NCBI GenBank assembly: GCA_016783145.1 | Contig: JADHXD010000044.1 | Coordinates: 1 to 32,289, forward strand | DNA from: Anaerolineae bacterium | GTDB lineage: Bacteria; Chloroflexota; Anaerolineae; JAFGEY01 | Direction of reading: 5' to 3' | Length of the DNA stretch: 32,289 nt | Part shown: positions 1-12,825 of the stretch, one piece after another | Layout of the letters: every line of letters starts with the position of its first letter | Position numbering within the stretch: the first letter of the stretch is position 1 | Notes under the pieces: generated by a model | Database searches by the model: none | Told to the model about the DNA's origin: nothing | What the model saw: the letters and a program-made list of their open reading frames with translations, nothing else | Position numbers and translations under genes: made by a program

Positions 1-66
1 TTGTCCGATCATACCTGTGGATAGACTGTGTCTAGCTTACCACAAAGTCGATGTCTTGTATGGGAC

Positions 67-1884
67 TTATGTCACATTGGCAAAAACCCGGATTCGTGCT
101 CTTGGGAAACTGGTTCTCCCCAAGATTTTGAGAAGATACCGATACCCAACATAGATCCCTTCCCCGTACACGACTCGGCCGAACTCCCCTGGGAAGTTCA
201 GGCAGGATGGTGTGTCCTGGTACCGCCTGGGGAAGGTCAGAGGCAGCTTGCCCGACGGGTTCTCGTCTCCGGACAGGAGCGCAGCGGCGGCGTGCCCAAG
301 CTCCATCCCGCCTAACCAGATGATGAGCACGGCGTCCACCTCGTCGATCCAACCGTGCATTTCGACGGGCCCACAGACGTTGAGCACCACGATGGTCTTG
401 ATCCTTCTGCGCCGGCACGTCTCTGCCGTCTCCAGGATCAGCGCGGTGTCCTCGTCCGCCAGCGCGAGGGACGCCCTGTCGCTTCCCTCACTGCTGGTGA
501 CCCCCACAGAGATGACGACGCAGGAGGCATTCGCGGGGATCTCGCCAAAGCGTACCGCGTCCGCACCGAACCGGGCCTCCAGCCCTTCCAGGAGGGAGAC
601 CATGTACGGAGACACGACCCCTGCACTGCCGCCGCCGGTGGCAATGGGGTTCTTTGCGTTCTCCCCCACCACGGCGATGACGCTGCCCTCCTCGATCGGC
701 AAGGCTCCGTCCTCGTTTTTCAGCAGCACGGCACCTTCCACCGCAACCCGGCGAGCGACTTGACTCGAGTAGGCGCGGTCGATGGCGGCGCGCTCCCTCC
801 CCGTGAAGGCAGGCAGTTTGACCAGCACGCCCAGGATGTTCGAGACTCGCTCGTCGAGGGTGGTCTCCCCAAGCTCGCCCCGTTCCACAGCATCGATGAC
901 CTCTTGAGGGTTCTGAGGCCCCGGCATCTCCAGATCGTTTCCGGCGTTGAGCGCCTGGATCCGGTCATAGGCCGCTCCCCAGTCGGAGACCACAAAGCCC
1001 GCGAATCCCCACTCCCCGCGCAGGATGTCGGTCAGGAGGCGCTTGCTCAGGGCACAGTCTTCGCCGTTGATCTTGTTGTAGGCACTCATCACCGTCCAGC
1101 AGCCCCCCTCCTGGACGGCGGCCTTGAAGGCCGGCAGATAGATCTCGCGCAGCGCCCGTTCGGGGATGACCTCGTCGATCCCCTGGCGCATGTACTCCTG
1201 GTTGTTCGCCGCATAGTGCTTGACGTCGGCGGCAATGCCCTCTCCCTGCACCCCCTTCACGTAGTCGATGACCGTCTGCGAGGCCAGGTAGGGATCTTCG
1301 GAATAGCTCTCGAACGCCCGGCCGCACAGGGGGTCGCGGTGGATGTTGACGTTGGGGCCGAGGAGCACGTCTACCCCGAACGCCTTGGCTTCCTTGGCCA
1401 CAGCGCGTCCGCACTCGCCGACGAGCTCCGGATTCCACGTGGCGCCCATCACCATCCCGGGCGGGAAGCAGCTAGGCAGTCCTCCTTCGGGGAGGGACTC
1501 TTGCACTGCCTGGCTCAGATCGCGCAGAAACGCGGCGTTCTCTGGAGATAGGCTCTCAATGTTCGACGGGTCCAGGTTCCCGGCGAGCAGGTTGCCGATG
1601 CCCGCCATACCAACGTCCGACATGGTACGAAACGGATCTCTCAACTCTCCAGCACTCTGGCCTCGCTTGGCGAGGACCTTGGGGATGATGTTCCCCAAGA
1701 GCTGGAAAAAGTTGATCCCGTTGTGCCCGTCCGCAGGCACAAAGGCCGGGATGCCCAACCGATCGACCGGGCCGGTCTCAAAGGCCCTGGCCCCAGCCAC
1801 AAAGCGGGCCTTTTCCTCCAGGGTCATCGCTTGGACGACCTCGGGGATCGAGGACGCGTCCGTCAGAATCGCACCCTTTGACAT
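67..1884 (-). CDS. GH3 beta-glucosidase-like, C-terminally truncated
   Basis: Retaining glycoside hydrolase of family 3, expected to release beta-linked sugars from oligosaccharides or glycosides. No signal peptide is visible, so it is probably cytoplasmic. Family landmarks are KHYAANNQE (222-230), MSAYNKING (266-274) and the nucleophile motif VVSDW with Asp301. The second domain carries SSEGSDR with the likely acid/base Glu466. The ATG at 1884 was chosen because AAGGAGGT lies just upstream; the frame is open further upstream but without family sequence. It is last in the minus-strand operon, 25 bases after the sulfatase. Homology runs to YVGYRY (Tyr583). Family members then normally continue with a YDKR-type segment and a fibronectin-III-like domain. 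Here 22 unrelated residues and a stop follow, and no other frame resumes the family sequence. It is therefore a short variant or a 3' truncation. GH3 assignment is secure; activity is uncertain. Confidence 0.9.
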   Translation of the reverse strand: MSKGAILTDASSIPEVVQAMTLEEKARFVAGARAFETGPVDRLGIPAFVPADGHNGINFFQLLGNIIPKVLAKRGQSAGELRDPFRTMSDVGMAGIGNLLAGNLDPSNIESLSPENAAFLRDLSQAVQESLPEGGLPSCFPPGMVMGATWNPELVGECGRAVAKEAKAFGVDVLLGPNVNIHRDPLCGRAFESYSEDPYLASQTVIDYVKGVQGEGIAADVKHYAANNQEYMRQGIDEVIPERALREIYLPAFKAAVQEGGCWTVMSAYNKINGEDCALSKRLLTDILRGEWGFAGFVVSDWGAAYDRIQALNAGNDLEMPGPQNPQEVIDAVERGELGETTLDERVSNILGVLVKLPAFTGRERAAIDRAYSSQVARRVAVEGAVLLKNEDGALPIEEGSVIAVVGENAKNPIATGGGSAGVVSPYMVSLLEGLEARFGADAVRFGEIPANASCVVISVGVTSSEGSDRASLALADEDTALILETAETCRRRRIKTIVVLNVCGPVEMHGWIDEVDAVLIIWLGGMELGHAAAALLSGDENPSGKLPLTFPRRYQDTPSCLNFPGEFGRVVYGEGIYVGYRYLLKILGRTSFPRARIRVFANVT

Positions 1885-1909
1885 CTGTGCACCTCCTTGA
1901 TGCTCATTT

Positions 1910-3304
1910 CTATTCGGTACCTCGAGGTTCCAGCCAGGGATCGCTCGTCCGCTGCAGCCACACCTGGAGTTCATCGGTCAGCCGACGCACCACCCCCGGT
2001 CTTGTAGCAGAGATCTCCCGCAGTTGGTACGGGTCATCGACGCGGTCATAGAGCACGCACCTCTCGGGCTCACCAGGCATGCGGTCGACCACAAAAGTGT
2101 ACCGGCAGGTGCGTATGCCCCGCCGTCCCCAGGCCGGCTTGTCGTAGGGGATCCGCTGGTAGAGCTGCGATCCAGGGCGTTCTCCTTCGCCTCCCAGCAG
2201 GATCCCGGCGTGACTCGTGCCCTCGACGGAGGCAGGAAGCTCTTCGCCCAGCCCCAGCAGGTCGATCAGCGTGGGGTAAAGGTCTGGCGCGGAAAAGAGC
2301 AGGTCATCCCGCCGCGGCGCGATGCGCCCGGGCCAGCGAATCATCAAGGGCACGCGCATCGACTCTTCGTAGGGGTTGTTCTTGGAGATCAGGTTGTGGA
2401 TGCCCAGGCAGTTCCCGTGGTCCGAGGTAAAGACGACGACGGTGTCCTCCGCGAGCCCTTGCTCGCCCAGAGCGCGGAGGATGCGCCCGAACTGCTCGTC
2501 CACGCCGCTGACCATCCCATAGTAGCCGCGAACCTTCGCCCGATAGTAATCGCCCCACTCGGTGCCCGCCGGTGGGATGTTGGGCCGCCTGCAGAGATCC
2601 TCGATCCCCACGTCTCCGTACAGGTCCACGTACCGCTGCGGCACCAGGTCATAGGGCATGTGGGGCGGGTTCATTGACACCACGAGCGCAAAGGGCCGGT
2701 CTGGATCTCGGTACCGGCCGCCCGCATTCTGGAGGTACTCGATGGCCAGGTCCGCCTCGTGCTCTGGGCCCCACTGGTCGACATAGTGGAACCCGTTTCG
2801 CGTTGCATCTGTGTCCCAGTACATCGGCCGGGTGTGCACGTCGTACGTGCCATAGGAATACCAAAAGTCAAAGCCGTGACGGCGGTGCGGCGGACACCAC
2901 TCGTTCCACTTGAGGTCCCCGCGATTGTTGGCGCAGTCGATGTACGGCGCTCGTGGGGCATCCAGGTGCCACTTGCCGAAGTAACCCAGGCTGTATCCGC
3001 GGTCGTGCAGGATGTCAGACCAACACCGATCGCCCTCCTGCAGTTCCACACCATAGGGTGCCGACCGGCTGGTACAGTTGCCGGTCACGTGGTTCGCGTG
3101 CGCGTACATCCCGGTCATGAACATCGCCCGGCACGGACTGCACACCGGGTAGTTGGCCACGGCCTGGGTCGAGACGTATCCCTCGCCGGCAAAGCGGTCG
3201 AGGTGCGGTGTGAGTACCGGCTCCTCGCCCAGAAAGCCCATGGCCTGTCCGCGCATCTGATCGGGGAAAACAAAGAGCAAGTTAGGCCGGCGCACGTCGC
3301 TCAT
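1910..3304 (-). CDS. S1-family arylsulfatase-like sulfatase
   Basis: Type I sulfatase of the alkaline phosphatase superfamily, hydrolysing sulfate esters, here probably from a sulfated sugar or glycoside. The formylglycine motif is Cys55-Ser-Pro-Cys-Arg59, so Cys55 would need conversion by a formylglycine-generating enzyme, which is not encoded in the window. The N-terminal RPNLLFVFPDQ supplies the first metal-binding Asp15, and VVFTSDHGN holds the second metal-binding Asp-His pair. At 464 residues it has the usual length. The ATG at 3304 follows a GGAGG ribosome site; the longer open frame upstream is low-complexity and unrelated. No signal peptide is visible, although many glycan sulfatases are periplasmic. 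It lies 37 bases after the exporter gene and 25 before the GH3 gene, which points to processing of a sulfated glycoside. The substrate cannot be read from sequence. Confidence 0.92.
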   Translation of the reverse strand: MSDVRRPNLLFVFPDQMRGQAMGFLGEEPVLTPHLDRFAGEGYVSTQAVANYPVCSPCRAMFMTGMYAHANHVTGNCTSRSAPYGVELQEGDRCWSDILHDRGYSLGYFGKWHLDAPRAPYIDCANNRGDLKWNEWCPPHRRHGFDFWYSYGTYDVHTRPMYWDTDATRNGFHYVDQWGPEHEADLAIEYLQNAGGRYRDPDRPFALVVSMNPPHMPYDLVPQRYVDLYGDVGIEDLCRRPNIPPAGTEWGDYYRAKVRGYYGMVSGVDEQFGRILRALGEQGLAEDTVVVFTSDHGNCLGIHNLISKNNPYEESMRVPLMIRWPGRIAPRRDDLLFSAPDLYPTLIDLLGLGEELPASVEGTSHAGILLGGEGERPGSQLYQRIPYDKPAWGRRGIRTCRYTFVVDRMPGEPERCVLYDRVDDPYQLREISATRPGVVRRLTDELQVWLQRTSDPWLEPRGTE

Positions 3305-3341
3305 GGATCGATCCCTCCAACTCTGCGGTCCACACGATGTC

Positions 3342-5138
3342 TCACGTCGTCTCCCCTTCCCACAGCCGCTGCATCTCCTCGCACGTTTCCAGCAGCTCGT
3401 CCAGCCTGCCCTCGGCCTCCACCCTGCCCTCCTTGAGCACGATGATGTGATCCGCGCGCTGGAGGGCCGCGCGGCGGTGCGAGACCACCAGGCATGTGAA
3501 CGAGCCCTCTCGCTCCCTTTGCTCGAACATGCGCTGCCAGAGCACCTGCTCTGTCTGGACGTCAAGCGCACTCGACAGATCGTCAAAGACCAGCAGCTCG
3601 GGGTCGCGCACGTACATGCGCGCCGCGGCGGTCCGCTGCGCCTGCCCGCCGGACAGGCGAATGCCCCTGGGACCGACGATGGTCTCCAGCCCGTTGTCTA
3701 GCTCTGCGACGTCCTGCTCCAGGACTGCCGCCTGTACTGCGGCCCGCACATCTACACTCTCCTCCGGCAGCCCCATCAGGATGTTGTCCTTGAGCGACTC
3801 GCTGAACAGCGCGGGGACCTGCGCCGTGTAGGCGCTGCGAGGTGGTACGAAAAAGGAGGCCGGGTCCTGGACGAGCCCTCCGTTCCAGCGGATCTCTCCC
3901 GCCTCCCCTGGCAGCAGTCCGAGCAGCACGCGCAGCAGCGTGGTCTTGCCCGAGCCGATGCGACCCGTGATCACGGTAAAGGAGCCACGGCGCAGGTCGA
4001 GGTCCATGCCCTCGATCCCACGTCCCGAACCCGGGTACTTGAAGGTCAAGCCAGAAGCTTGAAGGCACTCAAGCCGATGTTTGTCCTCCTTGGCCACGTG
4101 TGGCACGGCAGGCCCTGGGTCCGCCATGTACACCGGCCCGCGAGCCACCAACGACTCGGGCGGCGCCCCAGGCTGCAGCTCAAGCATCCGCCGGATCGAG
4201 ACTGCTTGTGTCTGATAGTCGGCCAAGAAGCCGCCCAGCGTGGCCGGAAGGTCGATCACATATGGAAGATAACTGACAAACAGTGTGAAATCGCCGATGG
4301 TGAATGCCGGCCCACCCGCAGGCGAAACAGCCCTCAAGGCTGAACCGGCCAGGAGCAGCACAATCCCTCGCCCCAGGTCGGCGATATTGCCAAAGGCCCA
4401 CTGCTCCAGCTCCCAGAACAGCCGACCCTTGACTTCCGCCTTGCGCCGGGCCTCGCTCAACTCGTAGAAGCGGGCGACCACGTCCCCCTCTGCGTCGGCG
4501 ACCTTGACCGCTTGCACGGCGTCCAGCGCCTCACCGAGGAATCCGGTGACGGCTCCGGTGGCGTCCCGGCTGGCGTGGTAGTAGCGCAGCATTCGATCCC
4601 GGCTGAGCTGCACGATGACGACGACCGCGATCAGGGGCAGCACCACGGCAAGGGTGATGGTCGGATGGATGGAGAACATGATGAGCAGGGCGACCACGGC
4701 AAAGACAGCGTGTCCCAGCAGGTACGGGAGCCACGAGGGCCAGTCGGCCACCTCCATCACGTCCCCCCGCAGGCGGCTGATGGCGTCCCCAGACGAGAGA
4801 GGCAGGGAGGTTGCACCGGGACGGCGGAGCACGTTGGCCACGATGTTCCTGCGCAGCAGGGCCCAGGCATAGCAGCGAAAGGTCTCCTCGCTGTAGACCC
4901 GGGTGTAGTCCGCCACGACGCGCGTCATCTCGGCCGCGACGAGCAGGGCGACGAGGCTCCAGAACCCGAGTCCTGCCGGGGCAGCGCCGGTAAGCCCGTC
5001 AAAGAGCGCCTGGAGGACCAGCCCGGGCAGGAGACGGCTGGACAGGCCGACTACGTACAAGATAGAGAAGGACAGGTAGTGCCCGGGACGGAACCGGATC
5101 AGCTCCCACGTCGCTGTCCAAGTCGGCAGCATCTTCAT
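3342..5138 (-). CDS. ABC exporter half-transporter, degenerate Walker B subunit
   Basis: Fused membrane and ATPase half of a type IV ABC exporter. About the first 310 residues form the membrane domain with hydrophobic spans, and the ATPase domain follows. Walker A is GRIGSGKT (392-399) and the signature LSGGQ (495-499) is canonical. Walker B is LLVFD (515-519) followed by Asp520 where the catalytic Glu belongs. The switch His554 is present. The ATG at 5138 overlaps the previous gene's stop as ATGA, with GGAGGTG upstream. The upstream partner has the opposite combination (poor signature, good Glu), so the two almost certainly form a heterodimer like TM287/288 or BmrCD. The pair lies between a methyltransferase and a sulfatase. 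The cargo is unknown; lipid, drug or glycoconjugate export are all possible. Confidence 0.93.
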   Translation of the reverse strand: MKMLPTWTATWELIRFRPGHYLSFSILYVVGLSSRLLPGLVLQALFDGLTGAAPAGLGFWSLVALLVAAEMTRVVADYTRVYSEETFRCYAWALLRRNIVANVLRRPGATSLPLSSGDAISRLRGDVMEVADWPSWLPYLLGHAVFAVVALLIMFSIHPTITLAVVLPLIAVVVIVQLSRDRMLRYYHASRDATGAVTGFLGEALDAVQAVKVADAEGDVVARFYELSEARRKAEVKGRLFWELEQWAFGNIADLGRGIVLLLAGSALRAVSPAGGPAFTIGDFTLFVSYLPYVIDLPATLGGFLADYQTQAVSIRRMLELQPGAPPESLVARGPVYMADPGPAVPHVAKEDKHRLECLQASGLTFKYPGSGRGIEGMDLDLRRGSFTVITGRIGSGKTTLLRVLLGLLPGEAGEIRWNGGLVQDPASFFVPPRSAYTAQVPALFSESLKDNILMGLPEESVDVRAAVQAAVLEQDVAELDNGLETIVGPRGIRLSGGQAQRTAAARMYVRDPELLVFDDLSSALDVQTEQVLWQRMFEQREREGSFTCLVVSHRRAALQRADHIIVLKEGRVEAEGRLDELLETCEEMQRLWEGETT

Positions 5139-6916
5139 GCCAGCACCTCCGCCAATCCGGTCTGCAGCAGATCGTGAAACCGCGAGCCCGGATCGCGCGC
5201 CAGGGCCACGCGGGAACCCCATTCGCGGATGCGCCCATCTTCCAGCACCATGATCTCGTCGGCCCGCTGCACCGTAGACAGCCGGTGGGCGACAATGATC
5301 GCCGTTCGGTCCTGCAGCAGGCGATCGATGGCCCGCTCCAGCAGTCGTTCAGTGGCCGGATCCAGGCGCGACGAAGCCTCGTCGAGGACCACCAGGCCGG
5401 GGTCCTTGAGGTAGACCCGAGTGAAAGCCAGGAGCTGCGCTTCTCCCGCCGAAAGACTGCTCCCGCCAGCATGCAGCTCGGTGTCCAGTCCATCTGGCAG
5501 CGACTGGACCCATTCCCACAGTCCCAGCTCTGACAGCGCGTCCTGGATTTGCTCGTCCGAGACGCGCTTGCTGAACAAGCTCACGTTGTCGCGGACGCTG
5601 CCCCGGAATAACTGCACGTCCTGGGTGACCAGTCCCACGCGCCCCCGCAGGTCGCTCAGGCGCAGGTCAAGAAGGTCCGCATCCCCCAGGCGGATCGCGC
5701 CCCTCGTCGGATCGTACAGTCGGAAAAGCAGCCGGGTGAGGGTCGTCTTGCCGCTTCCTGTGCGCCCCAGCAGCCCCAAGACCCCGCCCTGCTCCAGCGC
5801 GAACGAGATGTCGTCGAGCACACTCTCGCGCCCGTTGTCGCCGAGTCCATCCTCGTATCGAAAGGAAACCCCGTCGAAAGAGACGGACAGTGCCCCAGGC
5901 GGCAGCGCGGCCCGCGGGATCTCAGACAGACCGGAACGCGAGTGGAGCAGCGTCTCCACGCGCTCGATGCTGGCGCTCGCCTGTTGCAGGTCATCCACCT
6001 GGTGCCTGATCCGCATCAAGGGCGCGCGCAGCCGGCTGAGATAGTGGATCAGCAGGTAGACCGTGCCGATGGTCATCTGGCCCCGCACAAACAGCGAGCC
6101 ACCGATCGCCAGCACGCCGGCATAGGCTAAAAGGTAGACAGTGGCCTCCAGGGCCCGGCTCAGTCCCTGAGTCATTGTGGCCCGGCGCCACGCGTGGAAC
6201 ACGGCGCGCATCAAGCGGTACAGCCGCGCCATCACGTACTGCTCGGCCCCATTTGCGCGGATGTCCTCAGTGGCCGTCAGCCGCTCTCCCAAGAATCCGA
6301 ACAGATCGCCGTGCGCCTGGCGCGAGTCCCCCCACGCCGAGACCGCCCTCTTTTGCACAGTGCGCAAAGAGATCGCCATCAGACAGACGTAGGCTACACC
6401 CACCCCTCCGATGCGCGGGTCCTCGTAGGTCAAGGCGATCAGGATGCCCAGCGCCAGCAGGCCGTTGCTCAGCACCTGGATCGCCATCTGCGAGAAAAAG
6501 TTGGCCAGCCGGTTCACGTCACCGTCAATGCGCTCGATCAGCTCTCCGGGTGTGTGCGCCTTGTGGAACGACATGTCGAGCTTGAGGCAGTGCAGGGCCA
6601 GATCGCGCCGAAGCGCATTCGTCGCCGTCCAGCCCACCGTCTCGCTCAAGTACGTGCTAGCCAGGGACAGGCCCTGGATGGTCGCGGACACGCCCAGATA
6701 AGCCAGGGCAGCGGCGGTCAGTTCTCGTCCCACGCCCGGACGAGATTCGCTCGCACTGGCAACCACCGTATCGATGAACGTGCGGATGATCTGCGGGCTG
6801 ACCAACTGCAGCCCAATGCCCACAGCGACCAGGCAGGCCAACAGCAGGACCCTGGGCCGCTGAGGCTGGAGGTAGTCGGCAAGCAGTTGCCAGTAACGCC
6901 CCAGCGGTACCTTCAC
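5135..6916 (-). CDS. ABC exporter half-transporter, catalytic Glu subunit
   Basis: Second half of a heterodimeric type IV ABC exporter: an N-terminal membrane domain (about 1-315) then an ATPase domain. Walker A is GRTGSGKT (384-391), Walker B is LVVLD (508-512) with catalytic Glu513, and the switch His544 lies in VAHRLSTV. The signature reads LSAGE (488-492) instead of LSGGQ. In the dimer, this weak signature would face the partner's Asp-substituted Walker B, giving one degenerate site, while this subunit's Glu and the partner's LSGGQ form the consensus site. The chosen start is a GTG at 6916 with AGGAGG five bases upstream. A further GTG at 6973 is in frame but adds a poorly ordered, arginine-rich stretch. 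The gene overlaps its partner by four bases. Confidence 0.92.
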   Translation of the reverse strand: MKVPLGRYWQLLADYLQPQRPRVLLLACLVAVGIGLQLVSPQIIRTFIDTVVASASESRPGVGRELTAAALAYLGVSATIQGLSLASTYLSETVGWTATNALRRDLALHCLKLDMSFHKAHTPGELIERIDGDVNRLANFFSQMAIQVLSNGLLALGILIALTYEDPRIGGVGVAYVCLMAISLRTVQKRAVSAWGDSRQAHGDLFGFLGERLTATEDIRANGAEQYVMARLYRLMRAVFHAWRRATMTQGLSRALEATVYLLAYAGVLAIGGSLFVRGQMTIGTVYLLIHYLSRLRAPLMRIRHQVDDLQQASASIERVETLLHSRSGLSEIPRAALPPGALSVSFDGVSFRYEDGLGDNGRESVLDDISFALEQGGVLGLLGRTGSGKTTLTRLLFRLYDPTRGAIRLGDADLLDLRLSDLRGRVGLVTQDVQLFRGSVRDNVSLFSKRVSDEQIQDALSELGLWEWVQSLPDGLDTELHAGGSSLSAGEAQLLAFTRVYLKDPGLVVLDEASSRLDPATERLLERAIDRLLQDRTAIIVAHRLSTVQRADEIMVLEDGRIREWGSRVALARDPGSRFHDLLQTGLAEVLA

Positions 6917-7053
6917 GAGGCCCTCCTGGGGGCGCGAGGGTTCTCCATCCCTCCTGCCGCGCGGTGGTCCCACCTGTCTCTGCCAGTGAGGATCATAGGC
7001 TCATCTTCACTACACGAATGAGAGGGACGTGGAATCGGGACAGAGCGATCACC

Positions 7054-7908
7054 TCAAGGCTTCCGAACCACCGCGATCAGGTGCGTGCCCATATTCAGAG
7101 AGCCCTCCTCCGCGCTGGCCTCTAGCTCTATCCGCAGGAGCTCGCCCCACGCCTCGGGATCATCTCGGATCTGCTCCAGTGCCCCTTCCCATCCCACAGA
7201 CAGGCAGCCCGAGGCGGATAGGTCGAGGAGGGTCACCCCGGTCCGAGCCAGCCACTCTTTCAGTTCCCCCGCTCGGAACAGGTGCATAAAGCTCCCCTCC
7301 CGCCCCGGAAAGGTCTCGGGCAAGAGGTCACCCGTCTCGATGATCCTGCGGTTGGCCTCCGCGGGGACGGCAAGCACGCCCTGCAGGTGACGATGTGCGC
7401 TGCCCCACAGGGACATCACGCTGGACAGCAGAGCGCCACCGGATCGCAGCACGCGCAGGCACTCACCCAAGGCCACGTCTCGCCGGTCCAGCACATAGCT
7501 CAGCGGTCCGCCATAGGCCACGACCCGGTCAAAGGAACCGTCCCCGTAGCGGCTCATGTCACAGATGTCCACCTGCTGCCAGTCCTCGACCGCGTCCGCA
7601 AAGCCATACTCGTGAGCGTGGCGCTTGTTCAGCTCTAGCTGCACGGCCGAGATGTCGGCGACCAGGACCCGCGCTCCCAGGTCGGCAAGGACCTGCGTGA
7701 AGCGGCCCGCCCCGGCGCCGATCTCCAGCACCCGTGCGCCAGCCAGGACGTGTTTCCGGAGGTAGTGGGTGTGAATGTGCAGGCTCACTTCGTCCACCGG
7801 GGTCTCTACCAGCCGCTGCCACTCGCGATCGCCGTACTGGCCAAAGTACCCCTCGATCGACTCAGCGCTGTATCGCGTGGCCTCCCCTGCTTCCGTTTCT
7901 CCTGACAC
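7054..7908 (-). CDS. class I SAM-dependent methyltransferase
   Basis: Rossmann-fold methyltransferase using S-adenosylmethionine. Motif I is VLEIGAGAGRF (60-70), and the acidic residue at the end of strand beta-2 is Asp85 in VLVADIS. A later stretch (YGDGSFDRVVAYGG) matches motif IV, and a LRSGG turn matches post-motif III. The acceptor substrate cannot be inferred; the fold resembles UbiE/UbiG-type small-molecule methyltransferases. The start is GTG at 7908, the only start that keeps the domain; an ATG seven bases upstream is in another frame. A GGAAGGGGA stretch can serve as ribosome site. It lies 151 bases after the rhamnosidase gene and 137 before the exporter pair, same strand, so it may modify the exported compound. 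Confidence 0.88.
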   Translation of the reverse strand: MSGETEAGEATRYSAESIEGYFGQYGDREWQRLVETPVDEVSLHIHTHYLRKHVLAGARVLEIGAGAGRFTQVLADLGARVLVADISAVQLELNKRHAHEYGFADAVEDWQQVDICDMSRYGDGSFDRVVAYGGPLSYVLDRRDVALGECLRVLRSGGALLSSVMSLWGSAHRHLQGVLAVPAEANRRIIETGDLLPETFPGREGSFMHLFRAGELKEWLARTGVTLLDLSASGCLSVGWEGALEQIRDDPEAWGELLRIELEASAEEGSLNMGTHLIAVVRKP

Positions 7909-8059
7909 TGCTCATCCCCTTCCCTTGGCGGGACCAGAGATCCCGATGTCCCTGCTCAGGCACCCGTTTCGATCAGGGCATCCGGACCATGCCCAGTCCG
8001 CCAGGCGCGACTTGGCCGGTCAGCGGGTCCAGCGTACTTTACATTGTACGTATCGTGCT

Positions 8060-10231
8060 TCACTTCTCCCTCCAACTCACCTGCCCCCCCGAACCCAGCA
8101 AGAACAGGTAGGGAGCGGTGGACCAGGGATGGCAGAGCGAATCCAGCTCGTCTCCTGCAAAGCTCTCCCACGCCGTCGTCGCCCCCCGCTCCAGCATCTC
8201 TCCCCACTCCTGCTTGATCAGCGCGATAGCCTCGCCCTCCAGTCCGGCCACCCGCAGCGCGGGCAAGAAGTAAAAGTGAAAGTAGGGAGAACAGCGGCAC
8301 AGGCGGTCATAGCCCGCCAGCATCGCGCGCATCGCACGCGTCGCCTCCTCTCCGCCGAGGAGGCCAAAGCACACCGCCAGGGCATTGGTCTGCCACGAGG
8401 TGCCCTCGGACAGGAGGTCACCCTTGATCGCATCGTGGAACACCGTCCCGTCATAGAAGGCGCGCCGGATCGCCTCCCGCGTGCGCTGCGCCTGCACAGC
8501 CAGGGAAGATGCCTCCTCCATCCCCAGATATGCAGCGATCGCCGACAGCGTTCGGAGGTAAGCGTAGAAAAAGAGGTTGAGCGGGCAGCTTGTACCATCT
8601 CGATCGATCCCGGGATGCGGGAAGTTGTGCCAGCCCACACCCGGATGGTCGATAAAGTTCCGCAGCCCCTGCTCGGCGTACGCATGGGAGTCAAAGGAGA
8701 CCAATCCATCTCCATCCAGTCGGTCGTCGTACCACCGCTTCAGGCGCATCGCCCGGGCATAGGTCTCCGCTGGCTTATAGTACGACCCGGTATGCTGTTT
8801 GTACAGGTCCTGCCCGAGCAGGGGGATCAGCGAGTAGTCCAGCAAGGTGATGTGTTCGCCCGGGTAGGTGCTCGAGATCTGCCCACTTTCCTTGAACGGC
8901 ACGTGCAGGTAGCCCTCCAGGTACCATTCCAGGTACGATCGCTCCCCATAGCCTGCCCACAGGCTCTCGGCGATGAACAGCGCATCCCCCCAGTACTGCG
9001 TCTGCTCGCGCGTGGGGCAGTCGATCAGGTGCTCCTGCGCTCCCACCTCGAGCGTGTACTGGCACAGGTCGTACACCCGCTGCAGTTCCGCATCTTCGGT
9101 GCGATAGGAGCGGAGGCGGGCCAGCGGTGCCTTGCGCTCCAGGCACCCGATCTGGTGGATGCGGAGCCCTGCCGTGCTTCCCCGCACCACCAGGTGCAGG
9201 TAGCGGAACCCGTTCCACCCAAACGAGGTAAAGCGCTGCCGCCCTTCCCTGGTCCGGTAGCGCAGAGAGTAGCGGGTGCGCTTGCGGTAGATCCATGGAC
9301 GCCCCTCGCGAAGCATCCCTCCCTCGTCGAGGGGAACGCGCAGCAGCTCAGCGCCTGACAGCTCGATCACCAGCCCGGCGGGCGCTTCGATCTCAAGGTG
9401 ATAGAACCCGACGTGCTCGCGCCCCAGGTCAAAGGTCAGCGCGTTCGCCACCTGCAGGACATCGTTCACCCGTTCGGGGTCAAAGGGCACTCTCTCACCG
9501 ACGGGACCCAGGTCCTCTTCGTCGCTGTAGCGCGAGATCTCGCCAACGTCCTCCGCCCCCTCCTCCGGCGCACGGAAGGCCTGGACGCTTACCGGTTCCA
9601 CCAGGCGGCGCACGAGGGGAGGAGTCATCCGCACCTGGTACCCTCCCCAGATCGCGTCCGCGCCCTCGACCGGTGTCGCTGGCTTCCAAGAGCCCGTCGT
9701 CTCCGGAGAAAAGACCTTGTCCTGCCACCCGCCGGGTTCAAGCCCGGCGTCATAGTCCTCGCAGTAGTCCAGTGCCCATCCTCGGGCAGGGACATCTGAC
9801 CGCCACATCGGCAGGACCAGGCACACCCACGACGCGTCCGTGCCCAGGCACAAATCCCCCGCTTGGAACTCGGCGATCAAGCCGCCCGGCGCCGGCAGCA
9901 GGTAGTGCAGGTGTGTGCCGCGGGAGTGATGGACCAGGATCGAGATGCTCAGCTCGTCGCAGGCGTCCTCCGTCTCATACACGAGCTCGTCGTACTGGCA
10001 CCACCGTGGGTCTCCGTGGACGGGCCCACGGGCGATGAACGAGCCGTTGATGTAAAGCTCATAGTGATACGAAGCCGAGATGCGGACGCCCACCGGCATC
10101 CCGGGCGCGGGCAGATGGACCGTCTTGGCGAACATGACGTATGCGTTCTGACTTGTTCCCTCGCACCAGATCCACCGTCCCACCGAAAAGGGACTGCGCG
10201 CAGTTGTCACCTCGACAGCGGTCGCGTTCAT
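8060..10231 (-). CDS. GH78-like alpha-L-rhamnosidase, (alpha/alpha)6 barrel
   Basis: Predicted inverting alpha-L-rhamnosidase or related six-hairpin glycosidase. Residues about 15-210 form N-terminal beta-sandwich modules (YHYELYINGSFIARGPV is typical of family 78). A second beta region follows to about 365, then the helical barrel. The barrel carries DCPTREQTQYWGDA (404-417), the family's acid-rich catalytic segment. The C-terminus returns to beta-sandwich with a SLCHPWSTAPY motif. At 723 residues it is at the short end of the family. The ATG at 10231 overlaps the NUDIX stop as ATGA; its own ribosome site is weak, so translational coupling is likely. No signal peptide is visible. Rhamnose release from plant or microbial glycosides fits the neighbouring sulfatase and GH3, but that link is inference. 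Confidence 0.88.
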   Translation of the reverse strand: MNATAVEVTTARSPFSVGRWIWCEGTSQNAYVMFAKTVHLPAPGMPVGVRISASYHYELYINGSFIARGPVHGDPRWCQYDELVYETEDACDELSISILVHHSRGTHLHYLLPAPGGLIAEFQAGDLCLGTDASWVCLVLPMWRSDVPARGWALDYCEDYDAGLEPGGWQDKVFSPETTGSWKPATPVEGADAIWGGYQVRMTPPLVRRLVEPVSVQAFRAPEEGAEDVGEISRYSDEEDLGPVGERVPFDPERVNDVLQVANALTFDLGREHVGFYHLEIEAPAGLVIELSGAELLRVPLDEGGMLREGRPWIYRKRTRYSLRYRTREGRQRFTSFGWNGFRYLHLVVRGSTAGLRIHQIGCLERKAPLARLRSYRTEDAELQRVYDLCQYTLEVGAQEHLIDCPTREQTQYWGDALFIAESLWAGYGERSYLEWYLEGYLHVPFKESGQISSTYPGEHITLLDYSLIPLLGQDLYKQHTGSYYKPAETYARAMRLKRWYDDRLDGDGLVSFDSHAYAEQGLRNFIDHPGVGWHNFPHPGIDRDGTSCPLNLFFYAYLRTLSAIAAYLGMEEASSLAVQAQRTREAIRRAFYDGTVFHDAIKGDLLSEGTSWQTNALAVCFGLLGGEEATRAMRAMLAGYDRLCRCSPYFHFYFLPALRVAGLEGEAIALIKQEWGEMLERGATTAWESFAGDELDSLCHPWSTAPYLFLLGSGGQVSWREK

Positions 10232-10689
10232 CGCTCGCCGTGCCCCGGGTAGCTGATCTCGTTCCCCCAGCTCTCGACCTCGTCCAGAAAGACGCCCACC
10301 CCCAAGAGTCCCGCGGACCATACGAAGGCACGATCCCGCTCCGGGACCTCCGACATGCTCATCCAGCGCACGTCGGCGATGACCTGGTCCGCTTCCCCAA
10401 ACTCTGGGTCGCTGCCCTGGTGCACCTCTTGATCGCCGATGTCGATGAGGAAGGTACAGCTTGCGTCGACCCCAGCATACCAGGCGCGCCCGGTCTCACG
10501 GAGGATCGTCCCCTCGACGCCGCACTCCTCCCTGAGCTCTCGGAGCGCCGCCTGCCCCGGTGTCTCCCCGTCCTTAATCCCCCCGCCGGGAAGGCACCAC
10601 CATACCTCGCCTCCCTGCCGGTGCTGGACCATCAGCAGCCTATCCCCCCTGTGAACGATGCACTGTGCCCTGATCATGCCTCCCGTCAC
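10228..10689 (-). CDS. NUDIX hydrolase
   Basis: Small pyrophosphohydrolase of the NUDIX superfamily, cleaving a nucleoside diphosphate linked to another moiety. The NUDIX box spans about residues 36-58, with the diagnostic G-x5-E-x7-REL-x-EE-x-G-V pattern and Mg-binding Glu residues in RELREECGV. The protein is essentially the bare domain (153 residues). Its start overlaps the stop of the upstream aldo/keto reductase as GTGA (GTG at 10689). An ATG at 10677 is also in frame, but its nearest purine-rich site is only one or two bases away, so GTG is preferred. It overlaps the rhamnosidase by four bases downstream. The substrate is unknown; nucleotide-sugar or cofactor clean-up would suit the context. 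Confidence 0.9.
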   Translation of the reverse strand: MTGGMIRAQCIVHRGDRLLMVQHRQGGEVWWCLPGGGIKDGETPGQAALRELREECGVEGTILRETGRAWYAGVDASCTFLIDIGDQEVHQGSDPEFGEADQVIADVRWMSMSEVPERDRAFVWSAGLLGVGVFLDEVESWGNEISYPGHGER

Positions 10690-11705
10690 TCGCTTCCCAG
10701 GTAGGTGACATAGTCGGCGAGCATCTTTTTGAGCAGCGCGGGCGTGTCCAGGTCATATGGGCATCGCTCGCTGCACTCTCGGCACTCGAGACAGTCCTCA
10801 ATCCGCCGCATCTGCTCCTGCCACTCTGGCGCCAGGAAGCGAGCACTCGGCGATCGTCGCAGCAGAAGGCCCAACCGGGCCGCCATCGGAATCGGGATCT
10901 CTACCGGGCAGGGCAGGCAGTACCCGCACCCGCGACAAAAGTCTCCGGAGAGCTCGACCTTTTCCCGCTCGATCGCCCCCCGCATGTCGTCGTCCAGCAT
11001 CGGCGGGTCGGCTTCCAGCGCCAGGAACTCGGCCAGCTCGCTCTCCCGCTGAATCCCCCAGATCGGGACCACGTTCTCGTACTGGCGCAGCGCGGCAAAG
11101 GCCAGCCGGGCATCGGTGAGCAGGCCGCCGGACAGGGCCTTCATCGCGATCAGCCCCACGTCATTCTCCCGGCACACGCCGATCAGCTCCAGGTCCACGT
11201 CCGCCGAGATCGCGCTGAGCGGAAACTGGACGGTGTCGTATAGACCGGAACGAGCAGCCGCCAGCGCGTTGGCGATCTGGTGGTTGGTGATGCCGATGTA
11301 GCGGGCCATCCCTCTGCGCTTGGCTTCGAGAAGCCCGGCATACAGCGAATCCGGGTCATCCGGGTCGGGCAGCGTGCGCGGGTTGTGCAGTTGCAGGAGG
11401 TCGACGTGGTCCGTTCGCAGGTTCACGAGACTGATCTCAAGGCGCTCCAGCAGAGAGGCCTTGTCCTGGGCCCCGCTGCTCTTGGTCGCCAGGACGATGC
11501 CCCCTCGCACGTCAGACAGGGCATAGCCCAGCTTCTCCTCGCTGTCCGAATAGCCCCTCGCGGTGTCGTAGAAGCTGATCCCGCCCTCGTATGCCTGCCG
11601 GAGGATCGTCCTCGCCTGCTCAAAGCTCACGCGCTGGATCGGCAGCGCGCCAAAGGCCGTCCGGCTGACCCACAGGTCGGTCCTTCCCAGTCTGGTGTGT
11701 TCCAT
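10686..11705 (-). CDS. Aldo/keto reductase with C-terminal 4Fe-4S ferredoxin domain
   Basis: AKR TIM-barrel oxidoreductase with a C-terminal iron-sulfur extension. The catalytic tetrad is recognisable: Asp and Tyr in FYDTARGYSDSE, Lys in LATKSSG, His in LLQLHNPRT. Eight cysteines follow the barrel: C257, C260, C263, C266 and C305, C308, C311, C315-Pro, consistent with two 4Fe-4S clusters. This suggests electron exchange with a ferredoxin-like partner as well as with NAD(P)H. The ATG at 11705 has GGAG six bases upstream. It is the first gene of the minus-strand operon and shares a back-to-back promoter region with the reductive-dehalogenase-like gene, itself an Fe-S redox protein. The physiological substrate is unknown. 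Confidence 0.92.
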   Translation of the reverse strand: MEHTRLGRTDLWVSRTAFGALPIQRVSFEQARTILRQAYEGGISFYDTARGYSDSEEKLGYALSDVRGGIVLATKSSGAQDKASLLERLEISLVNLRTDHVDLLQLHNPRTLPDPDDPDSLYAGLLEAKRRGMARYIGITNHQIANALAAARSGLYDTVQFPLSAISADVDLELIGVCRENDVGLIAMKALSGGLLTDARLAFAALRQYENVVPIWGIQRESELAEFLALEADPPMLDDDMRGAIEREKVELSGDFCRGCGYCLPCPVEIPIPMAARLGLLLRRSPSARFLAPEWQEQMRRIEDCLECRECSERCPYDLDTPALLKKMLADYVTYLGSE

Positions 11706-11728
11706 GCATGCTCCAATCTGCTCTAGTC

Positions 11729-11756
11729 AGTATCACCATCTCGATCGGCTTGGCAA
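11729..11756 (-). promoter_or_regulatory. Predicted sigma-70 promoter for the AKR-led operon
   Basis: On the minus strand, TTGCCA (11756-11751) and GATACT (11734-11729) are separated by 16 bases. They lie about 25 bases before the AKR start. The -35 element overlaps that of the opposing promoter, because TTGGCAA read on the other strand is TTGCCAA. Confidence 0.5.
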
Positions 11757-11778
11757 GAAGCCCGTTCGTGCGTATAAT
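11750..11778 (+). promoter_or_regulatory. Strong sigma-70 promoter for the RdhA-like gene
   Basis: TTGGCA (11750-11755), a 17-base spacer and a consensus TATAAT (11773-11778) lie 42 bases before the TTG start. This is one of the best promoter matches in the window. Confidence 0.7.
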
Positions 11779-11820
11779 GGCACTCGAGCCCAGCCCACCG
11801 CCACCACAGGAGTGAGAGAC

Positions 11821-12825
11821 TTGATCACGAAACTGGACCACCCCCCATATACCATCGACCCCAACGTCCACGCCCGCTTTGACGAGAGAAAGACGATACT
11901 CGCCCGCCGGTCGTGGGAGGCCAGTGCCGACTTTTACGGCCAGCCCCTTCACCAGAACGCTCCCCACGTGATCGCCACAAACCGGCGCGGCTACTCTCGG
12001 CTGGAATACGCTCGACTGCGGGCCGCCTGGACCGTGCACGATCACTTTGGCGGCGCCTTCGCTTGGGACGCACTGGACGCGCCCGACCCCGTCGCCCAGG
12101 AGCTTGGGAGGTACCGCCCGGAGAGCCCGGCGCAGATCAGCGCACAAGTCAAAGAGACCGCCAGGATGTATGGCGCGGCTCTCGTTGGGATCTGCGAGCT
12201 GGACCGCCGCTGGGTGTACTCGCACGATCGGGAGGGAAACCCGATCGATATCCCTCCCGAATACCGCTACGCGGTCGTGATGGCGATCGCTATGGACGCG
12301 GAGGCGATCCTCCGCTCGCCCACATACCCGGCTGCGGTCGCCACCGGGATCGGGTACTCGCGCATGGCATTCGCGACCGGGTGCCTGGCCGAGTTCATCC
12401 GCAGCCTGGGCTACAAGGCGATCCCGATGGGAAATGACACCTCCTTGAGCATCCCGCTGGCCATTGACGCCGGACTCGGCGAGCTGGGAAGAAGCGGGCT
12501 CCTGGTCACGCCACAGTACGGCCCCTGCGTGCGCCTGTGCAAGGTGTTTACGGATCTGCCCCTCGAACCGGACCCACCCATCGAGTTCGGCATCACTCGC
12601 TTCTGCAAGGCATGCAACCGCTGCTCAGGGAACTGCCCTGCGGACGCCATCTCCACCGAACGAGAGCCCTCCTACCAGGTCGCGTGCCGGTCCAACAACC
12701 ACGGGATCTTGCGCTGGGCGGTGAACGTCGAAAAGTGCTATTCGTTCTGGCTGGAGAACGGGGCATCGTGCGCAAACTGCATGCGCATGTGTCCCTTTAC
12801 TCGTCGCGCTCTGCGAGCTAGCTGA
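11821..12825 (+). CDS. Reductive dehalogenase-like (RdhA-type) 4Fe-4S, probably cobalamin-dependent protein
   Basis: Related to the catalytic subunit of reductive dehalogenases, and more distantly to epoxyqueuosine reductase QueG. Family stretches are GIGYSRMAFATG (176-187), IRSLGYKAIPMGND (193-206), GLGELGRSGLLVTPQYGP (218-235) and TDLPLEPDPPIEFG. The first cluster motif is C262-x2-C265-x2-C268-x3-C272-Pro. C306, C317, C320 and C324-Pro supply a second. There is no twin-arginine signal and no adjacent small RdhB membrane anchor, so a soluble, non-respiratory role is likely. The chosen start is TTG at 11821, with AGGAG about nine bases upstream and the strong promoter before it. GTG at 11812 is in frame but sits on the ribosome site. 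At 334 residues it is short for an RdhA. Its 3' end overlaps the convergent enolase-superfamily gene by eight bases. The substrate is unknown and need not be halogenated. Confidence 0.82.
   Translation: MITKLDHPPYTIDPNVHARFDERKTILARRSWEASADFYGQPLHQNAPHVIATNRRGYSRLEYARLRAAWTVHDHFGGAFAWDALDAPDPVAQELGRYRPESPAQISAQVKETARMYGAALVGICELDRRWVYSHDREGNPIDIPPEYRYAVVMAIAMDAEAILRSPTYPAAVATGIGYSRMAFATGCLAEFIRSLGYKAIPMGNDTSLSIPLAIDAGLGELGRSGLLVTPQYGPCVRLCKVFTDLPLEPDPPIEFGITRFCKACNRCSGNCPADAISTEREPSYQVACRSNNHGILRWAVNVEKCYSFWLENGASCANCMRMCPFTRRALRAS

Follow-up and report, generated by a model that had tools for sequence, protein, structure and literature searches.

A predicted heterodimeric ABC exporter with one consensus and one degenerate ATP site beside sugar-processing genes of an Anaerolineae bacterium

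In ATP-binding cassette (ABC) exporters an ATP site is composed of the Walker A and B motifs of one subunit and the signature motif of its partner. The available part of PMC7756269 treats TmrAB from Thermus thermophilus, which has a canonical Walker B motif in TmrA, and TM287/288 from Thermotoga maritima as heterodimers with a degenerate site. According to the same text, in the human genome the signature of nucleotide-binding domain (NBD) 2 is changed in all degenerate sites, and a Walker B Glu-to-Asp replacement is the second most frequent change. In OmrDE, a heterodimeric multidrug exporter of Ornithinimicrobium cerasi, OmrE keeps the Glu and OmrD has Asp (PMC11109279, available part). The same rule of Glu in one subunit and degeneracy in the other holds for known heterodimers in the accessible portions of PMC7756269, PMC4997860 and PMC11109279. 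Here we examined two adjacent half-exporter genes, ABC_E and ABC_D, from an Anaerolineae bacterium (Chloroflexota; GCA_016783145.1). The analysed window is the entire contig JADHXD010000044.1 (C50, 32,289 bases) of a genome in 233 contigs. The pair very probably constitutes a type I (ABCB-type) heterodimeric exporter in which one ATP site is consensus and the other degenerate, and which most likely exports amphipathic small molecules and came to its present place by recruitment.

Complementary ATP sites and their conservation

Pfam assigned ABC_membrane and ABC_tran domains to each of the two products. Residue numbers were counted from the likely starts at 6916 (ABC_E) and 5138 (ABC_D). Walker A (GRTGSGKT in ABC_E, GRIGSGKT in ABC_D), the Q-loop Gln and the H-loop His are intact in both. 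ABC_E has Glu513 and a changed signature, LSAGE at 488. ABC_D has the regular LSGGQ at 495, and Asp520 replaces the Glu. Because a site is shared between subunits, Glu and LSGGQ come together in a consensus site, and Asp and LSAGE in a degenerate one. These residues and their coordinates were as the original prediction had given them, and its proposal that the two subunits form a heterodimer, one site being consensus and the other degenerate, is well supported. The motif pattern is the textbook layout of heterodimeric ABC exporters. The pair has the features that define heterodimeric type I exporters with a degenerate site, i.e. adjacent genes each coding for a transmembrane domain (TMD) and an NBD, a Glu/Asp split and an LSAGE/LSGGQ split. 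In the literature we did not find the LSAGE motif discussed together with ABC transporters; one paper was found that mentions heterodimeric ABC exporters alongside Chloroflexi.

In the proposed mechanism, Walker A/B of ABC_E with Glu513 and LSGGQ of ABC_D would hydrolyse ATP, and Walker A/B of ABC_D with Asp520 and LSAGE of ABC_E would mainly bind it. The cycle of the assembled heterodimer would be asymmetric, as for TmrAB and TM287/288.

Is this pattern peculiar to the contig? We aligned 65 ABC_E and 61 ABC_D sequences, window included, which were selected by overall similarity and not by motif residues. Glu was present in 63 of 63 alignable ABC_E sequences (2 of 65 were gapped) and Asp in 58 of 58 alignable ABC_D sequences (3 of 61 gapped). 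The ABC_E signatures (n = 63) were LSAGE in 46, LSAGQ in 7, LSSGE in 3 and others in 7; the ABC_D signatures (n = 59) were LSGGQ in 57 and ISGGQ in 2. Since the Glu/Asp pattern is kept across homologues chosen without regard to these residues, it is not due to chance. The order ABC_E, then ABC_D, was found in all 60 loci with both genes, with a 4-nt overlap in 43; the remaining four loci lack ABC_D and are cut by a contig edge. Distances among ABC_E and among ABC_D sequences correlated with r = 0.88 (58 pairs; the largest of 2000 permutations gave 0.21), a value that is inflated by the common descent of the genomes, and 40 of the 58 pairs had the same nearest neighbour in both subunits. The complementary-site pattern is a trait of the exporter family and no clue to this operon.

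Likeness to known exporters and spread of the family

AlphaFold models were obtained for the single chains, ABC_D and ABC_E apart (pLDDT 83 and pTM 0.75 for ABC_D; 82 and 0.68 for ABC_E). Judged by these models, both chains would adopt the type I exporter fold. Foldseek placed 6rai chain B first for ABC_D, with TMq 0.78 and E 8.9e-29, and 6rah chain A first for ABC_E, where E was 1.8e-36 but TMq reached only 0.56 (9.4 Å). Both entries are TmrAB structures, and we take the chains to be TmrB and TmrA, respectively. TmrAB has zipper-like helices at its C-terminal end. Identities in fold alignments were 24–29% for TmrAB and about 23–24% for BmrCD (YheI/YheH) from Bacillus subtilis; TM287/288 was 25–28% identical to ABC_E and 19–21% to ABC_D. 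In a sequence search of solved structures eukaryotic full transporters ranked best. The single-NBD bacterial chains among the matches listed were YheH, as the first, TM288 and 5mkk chain A for ABC_E, and solely YheI for ABC_D (best 60). A profile search returned TM288 as the first bacterial half-transporter for ABC_E and none for ABC_D among the best 60 matches. OmrDE is likened to the pair by description only; unlike the pair, it is described next to a heliorhodopsin gene (PMC11109279, available part). Of the named NCBIfam subfamilies (Tet(46), MsbA, CydDC, SmdAB and others), none accepted either protein above its cut-off among the best 25 of 179 (ABC_D) and 178 (ABC_E) families; examples are 180 of 1250 bits for ABC_D (Tet46 A) and 300 of 602 bits for ABC_E (MsbA).

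The family is widespread. An ABC_E homologue at 1e-130 was present in 71 of 400 phylum genomes, own included, in a survey which scored at most three candidates per genome and may have missed extra copies. In the set of relatives 9 of 41 genomes, own included, had one at 1e-90. Carriers include Ktedonobacter, Anaerolineae, Paenibacillus and Bacillota metagenome-assembled genomes. Homologues also occurred in 12 plasmid records of cyanobacteria, Deinococcus and actinomycetes, from which five plasmid loci were examined. Four ABC_D homologues in the examined plasmid loci keep Asp. Six other ABC half-transporter-like open reading frames (ORFs) in the same loci were mixed, with a D/E pair in L128 and LSGGQ plus Glu in both of L045. 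In L045, from Paenibacillus sp. CC-CFT747, the ABC_E homologue (9992–11745) is broken into two overlapping ORFs. The own genome contains two further pairs, on contigs C96 and C210. A CAAX-protease-like gene and a short-chain dehydrogenase lie upstream of the C96 pair and a divergent ThuA-like gene upstream of the C210 pair; the other flank of each reaches the contig end.

The gene neighbourhood

On the minus strand the genes run AKR (aldo-keto reductase), NUDIX, GH78-like hydrolase, methyltransferase, ABC_E, ABC_D, sulfatase and GH3 (Table 1). The original prediction had placed the pair between a methyltransferase and a sulfatase plus two glycosidases. This held for the sulfatase and GH3, which follow downstream, whereas the GH78-like gene precedes the methyltransferase.

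Table 1. Coordinates of the exporter pair and its flanking genes in the window.
Feature	Position	Strand	Remarks
ABC_E, half-exporter (TMD+NBD)	5135..6916	-	likely GTG start 6916 behind AGGAGG; ORF open to 6973
ABC_D, half-exporter (TMD+NBD)	3342..5138	-	likely ATG start 5138; ORF open to 5222
Class I SAM-dependent methyltransferase (Methyltransf_11)	7054..7908	-	137 nt upstream of ABC_E start 6916
Cys-type sulfatase, CSPCR at 55	1910..3304	-	begins 37 nt past ABC_D
GH3 family hydrolase	67..1884	-	begins 25 nt past sulfatase; 3' end at contig end
GH78-like hydrolase (Bac_rhamnosid6H, 55 bits)	8060..10231	-	stop 151 nt from methyltransferase start 7908

Between the end of GH3 and the contig edge lie 67 bases. 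By eye, its likeness to GH3 is lost after a YVGYRY stretch and a stop follows soon, perhaps an artefact of the assembly end. Between 10686 and 30469 there are three MR/MLE genes (enolase superfamily), one lactate-racemase-like gene, three aldo-keto reductases, two xylose-isomerase-like TIM barrels and an FAD oxidoreductase. The contig is apparently devoted to sugar-acid catabolism. GC content is uniform along it (0.64 to 0.65) and close to that of the C96 and C210 stretches; because of this evenness there was no sign of a foreign insert.

Could the exporter be tied to this operon? An imported glycoside, e.g. a plant phenolic or terpenoid, would be stripped by GH78, GH3 and the sulfatase, the aglycone capped with methyl groups and the toxic core pumped out. 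The layout speaks for this to some extent. From AKR to GH3 the genes share a strand; 4 nt are shared at AKR-NUDIX, at NUDIX-GH78 and between the ABC_E stop and the ABC_D ATG, and gaps of 37 nt (ABC_D to sulfatase) and 25 nt (sulfatase to GH3) follow downstream. With this spacing ABC_E, ABC_D, sulfatase and GH3 may be cotranscribed. GH3, sulfatase and GH78 have no hydrophobic stretch within their first 60 residues (hydropathy only), in line with the claim that the glycosidases lack signal peptides and with intracellular enzymes. The best NCBIfam model of GH3 is exo-alpha-L-arabinopyranosidase, though at 429 bits versus a cut-off of 1300. Conversely, the 151 nt between GH78 and the methyltransferase and the 137 nt between the methyltransferase and ABC_E would fit separate promoters, though a scan found no promoter-like site there; over 1–12000 promoter-like and terminator-like sites were at chance level. 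Furthermore, a Pfam scan of 25 window ORFs revealed no importer domain, as had been claimed, and the 9 SBP_bac_1 and 44 BPD_transp_1 matches of the genome are all on other contigs.

Conservation of the order methyltransferase-exporter-sulfatase-glycosidase had been set beforehand as a test of the operon. We compared 64 other exporter loci by BLAST with the window proteins (24 loci at >60 bits, 40 at >50 bits), many of them cut by contig ends. They comprised all 11 matches from the relatives set outside the own genome, the two own-genome pairs, 11 of 17 from a further set (six remote ones were dropped) and 40 phylum matches, mostly top-ranked. The gene order was kept in none of the 64, the outcome that the original prediction had named as a refutation. 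Homologues of the methyltransferase, of GH78 and of NUDIX were each absent from all 64. Sulfatase matches occurred in a single locus (L126; two weak ones of 72 and 56 bits, 5.4 and 7.9 kb off), as did GH3 (L042; 4.4 kb off, opposite strand). Relatives from large families were present in a few loci: MR/MLE in five (L009, L027, L119, L126, L147), AKR in two (L009, L039) and ADH in one (L150).

What surrounds the exporters instead is varied. Clustering of neighbours within 4.5 kb gave, among the 25 largest clusters, other ABC transporters in seven loci, one unidentified family in four and the rest in at most three. Pfam was run on 150 same-strand ORFs of at least 150 amino acids within 2.5 kb (58 of 64 loci; 4 ORFs were omitted for length or edges). 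The top 25 families per set had at most three members each, among them ABC_tran, TetR and AAA_21 in one set, MFS_1, Methyltransf_11 and related methyltransferase models in the other. Sulfatase, GH3 and GH78 were not among these listed families, with one-member families mostly outside the listing. Methyltransferases of other families accounted for 3 of 75 same-strand neighbours within 2.5 kb, and in a Deinococcus plasmid an unrelated one lies about 1.9 kb upstream of the pair. Methylated products may thus be handled by some exporters of this family, a point in favour of a tie between exporter and operon.

The comparison was repeated from the side of the enzymes. Relatives of the window methyltransferase at 1e-40 were present in 15 of 400 genomes, own included; none of the 14 regions around them had an exporter of the ABC_E/ABC_D family. 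Five other genomes matched both methyltransferase and exporter, always on separate contigs of draft assemblies in which distant linkage is possible. For the sulfatase (1e-100) and for GH78 (1e-60) close homologues were confined to the own genome (1 of 199 class genomes each), and the closest relatives compared share no more than the class with the window genome; both leave room for a clearing role in this organism. Counting fragments and the window's sulfatase itself, there are 31 sulfatase-domain matches in the genome, beside 6 FGE-sulfatase matches, and because of this number a sulfatase next to any gene is unsurprising. A literature search did not find this combination of enzymes paired with an ABC exporter. 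The operon reading is thus unsupported beyond the single locus. For this one organism clearance of a glycoconjugate is conceivable, and overall we consider an operon-tied exporter rather unlikely.

Two side observations concern the methyltransferase family. In L079, L080 and L081 (one genus) relatives of the window methyltransferase are near one to three sulfatases, about 27–31% identical to the window's. L071 and L072 have two methyltransferase-family copies about 3 kb apart with NUDIX-like genes close by (by eye).

Subunit assembly and cargo

Several points weigh against a heterodimeric exporter of amphipathic compounds. The placement of domains in the ABC_E model is unreliable because of its low pTM and the TMq of its first match. 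The Foldseek lists mix homodimeric exporters, e.g. MsbA, with both kinds of heterodimer subunits; therefore the fold is assigned and the subunit type not firmly. The ABC_E homologue of Streptomyces clavuligerus has MSGGQ, i.e. the signature change is not universal. On plasmid pAQ7 of Picosynechococcus PCC 7002 an ABC_E homologue (L157, 6001–7710; LSAGE and Glu kept) stands alone, and no ABC_D was found within about 6 kb of it (13.7 kb covered; one of five plasmid loci). Finally, we know of no member of this exporter family with a demonstrated cargo.

The lone gene of PCC 7002 would suit half-transporters which act as two separate homodimers. However, with Asp in all alignable ABC_D sequences and a changed signature in ABC_E each homodimer would have two altered sites, and both the tandem order in 60 of 60 loci and the correlated divergence argue for joint function. 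Separate homodimers are therefore very improbable. About as improbable is the other option offered by the original prediction, an operon for making and exporting a methylated, sulfated glycoconjugate: a methyltransferase does adjoin the exporter, yet the arrangement is not conserved and the proposal is without support because the 25 scanned ORFs contain no glycosyltransferase or sulfotransferase domain and instead code for hydrolases, aldo-keto reductases, three MR/MLE proteins and one lactate-racemase-like protein.

For the favoured heterodimer, the cargo is most likely amphipathic small molecules, either metabolites or xenobiotics. In Gloeothece PCC 7424 the pair is a few kb from siderophore-uptake genes and a non-ribosomal peptide synthetase gene; the lone ABC_E of PCC 7002 has genes for a siderophore receptor and a cytochrome P450 close by. 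Ketoacyl-synthase domains were found in 2 of 75 neighbours. Biosynthetic genes near some pairs and otherwise varied neighbours favour diverse amphipathic metabolites, which the pump would move outward. In the Anaerolineae bacterium the exporter would have been recruited beside intracellular sugar-cleaving enzymes, within a catabolic gene group.

Beyond annotation little is gained for the contig. The family is a common one for which no model passes among the NCBIfam families listed. Because the surrounding sugar-processing genes are not usual neighbours of this exporter family, the find is an ordinary two-part export pump of a common bacterial kind.

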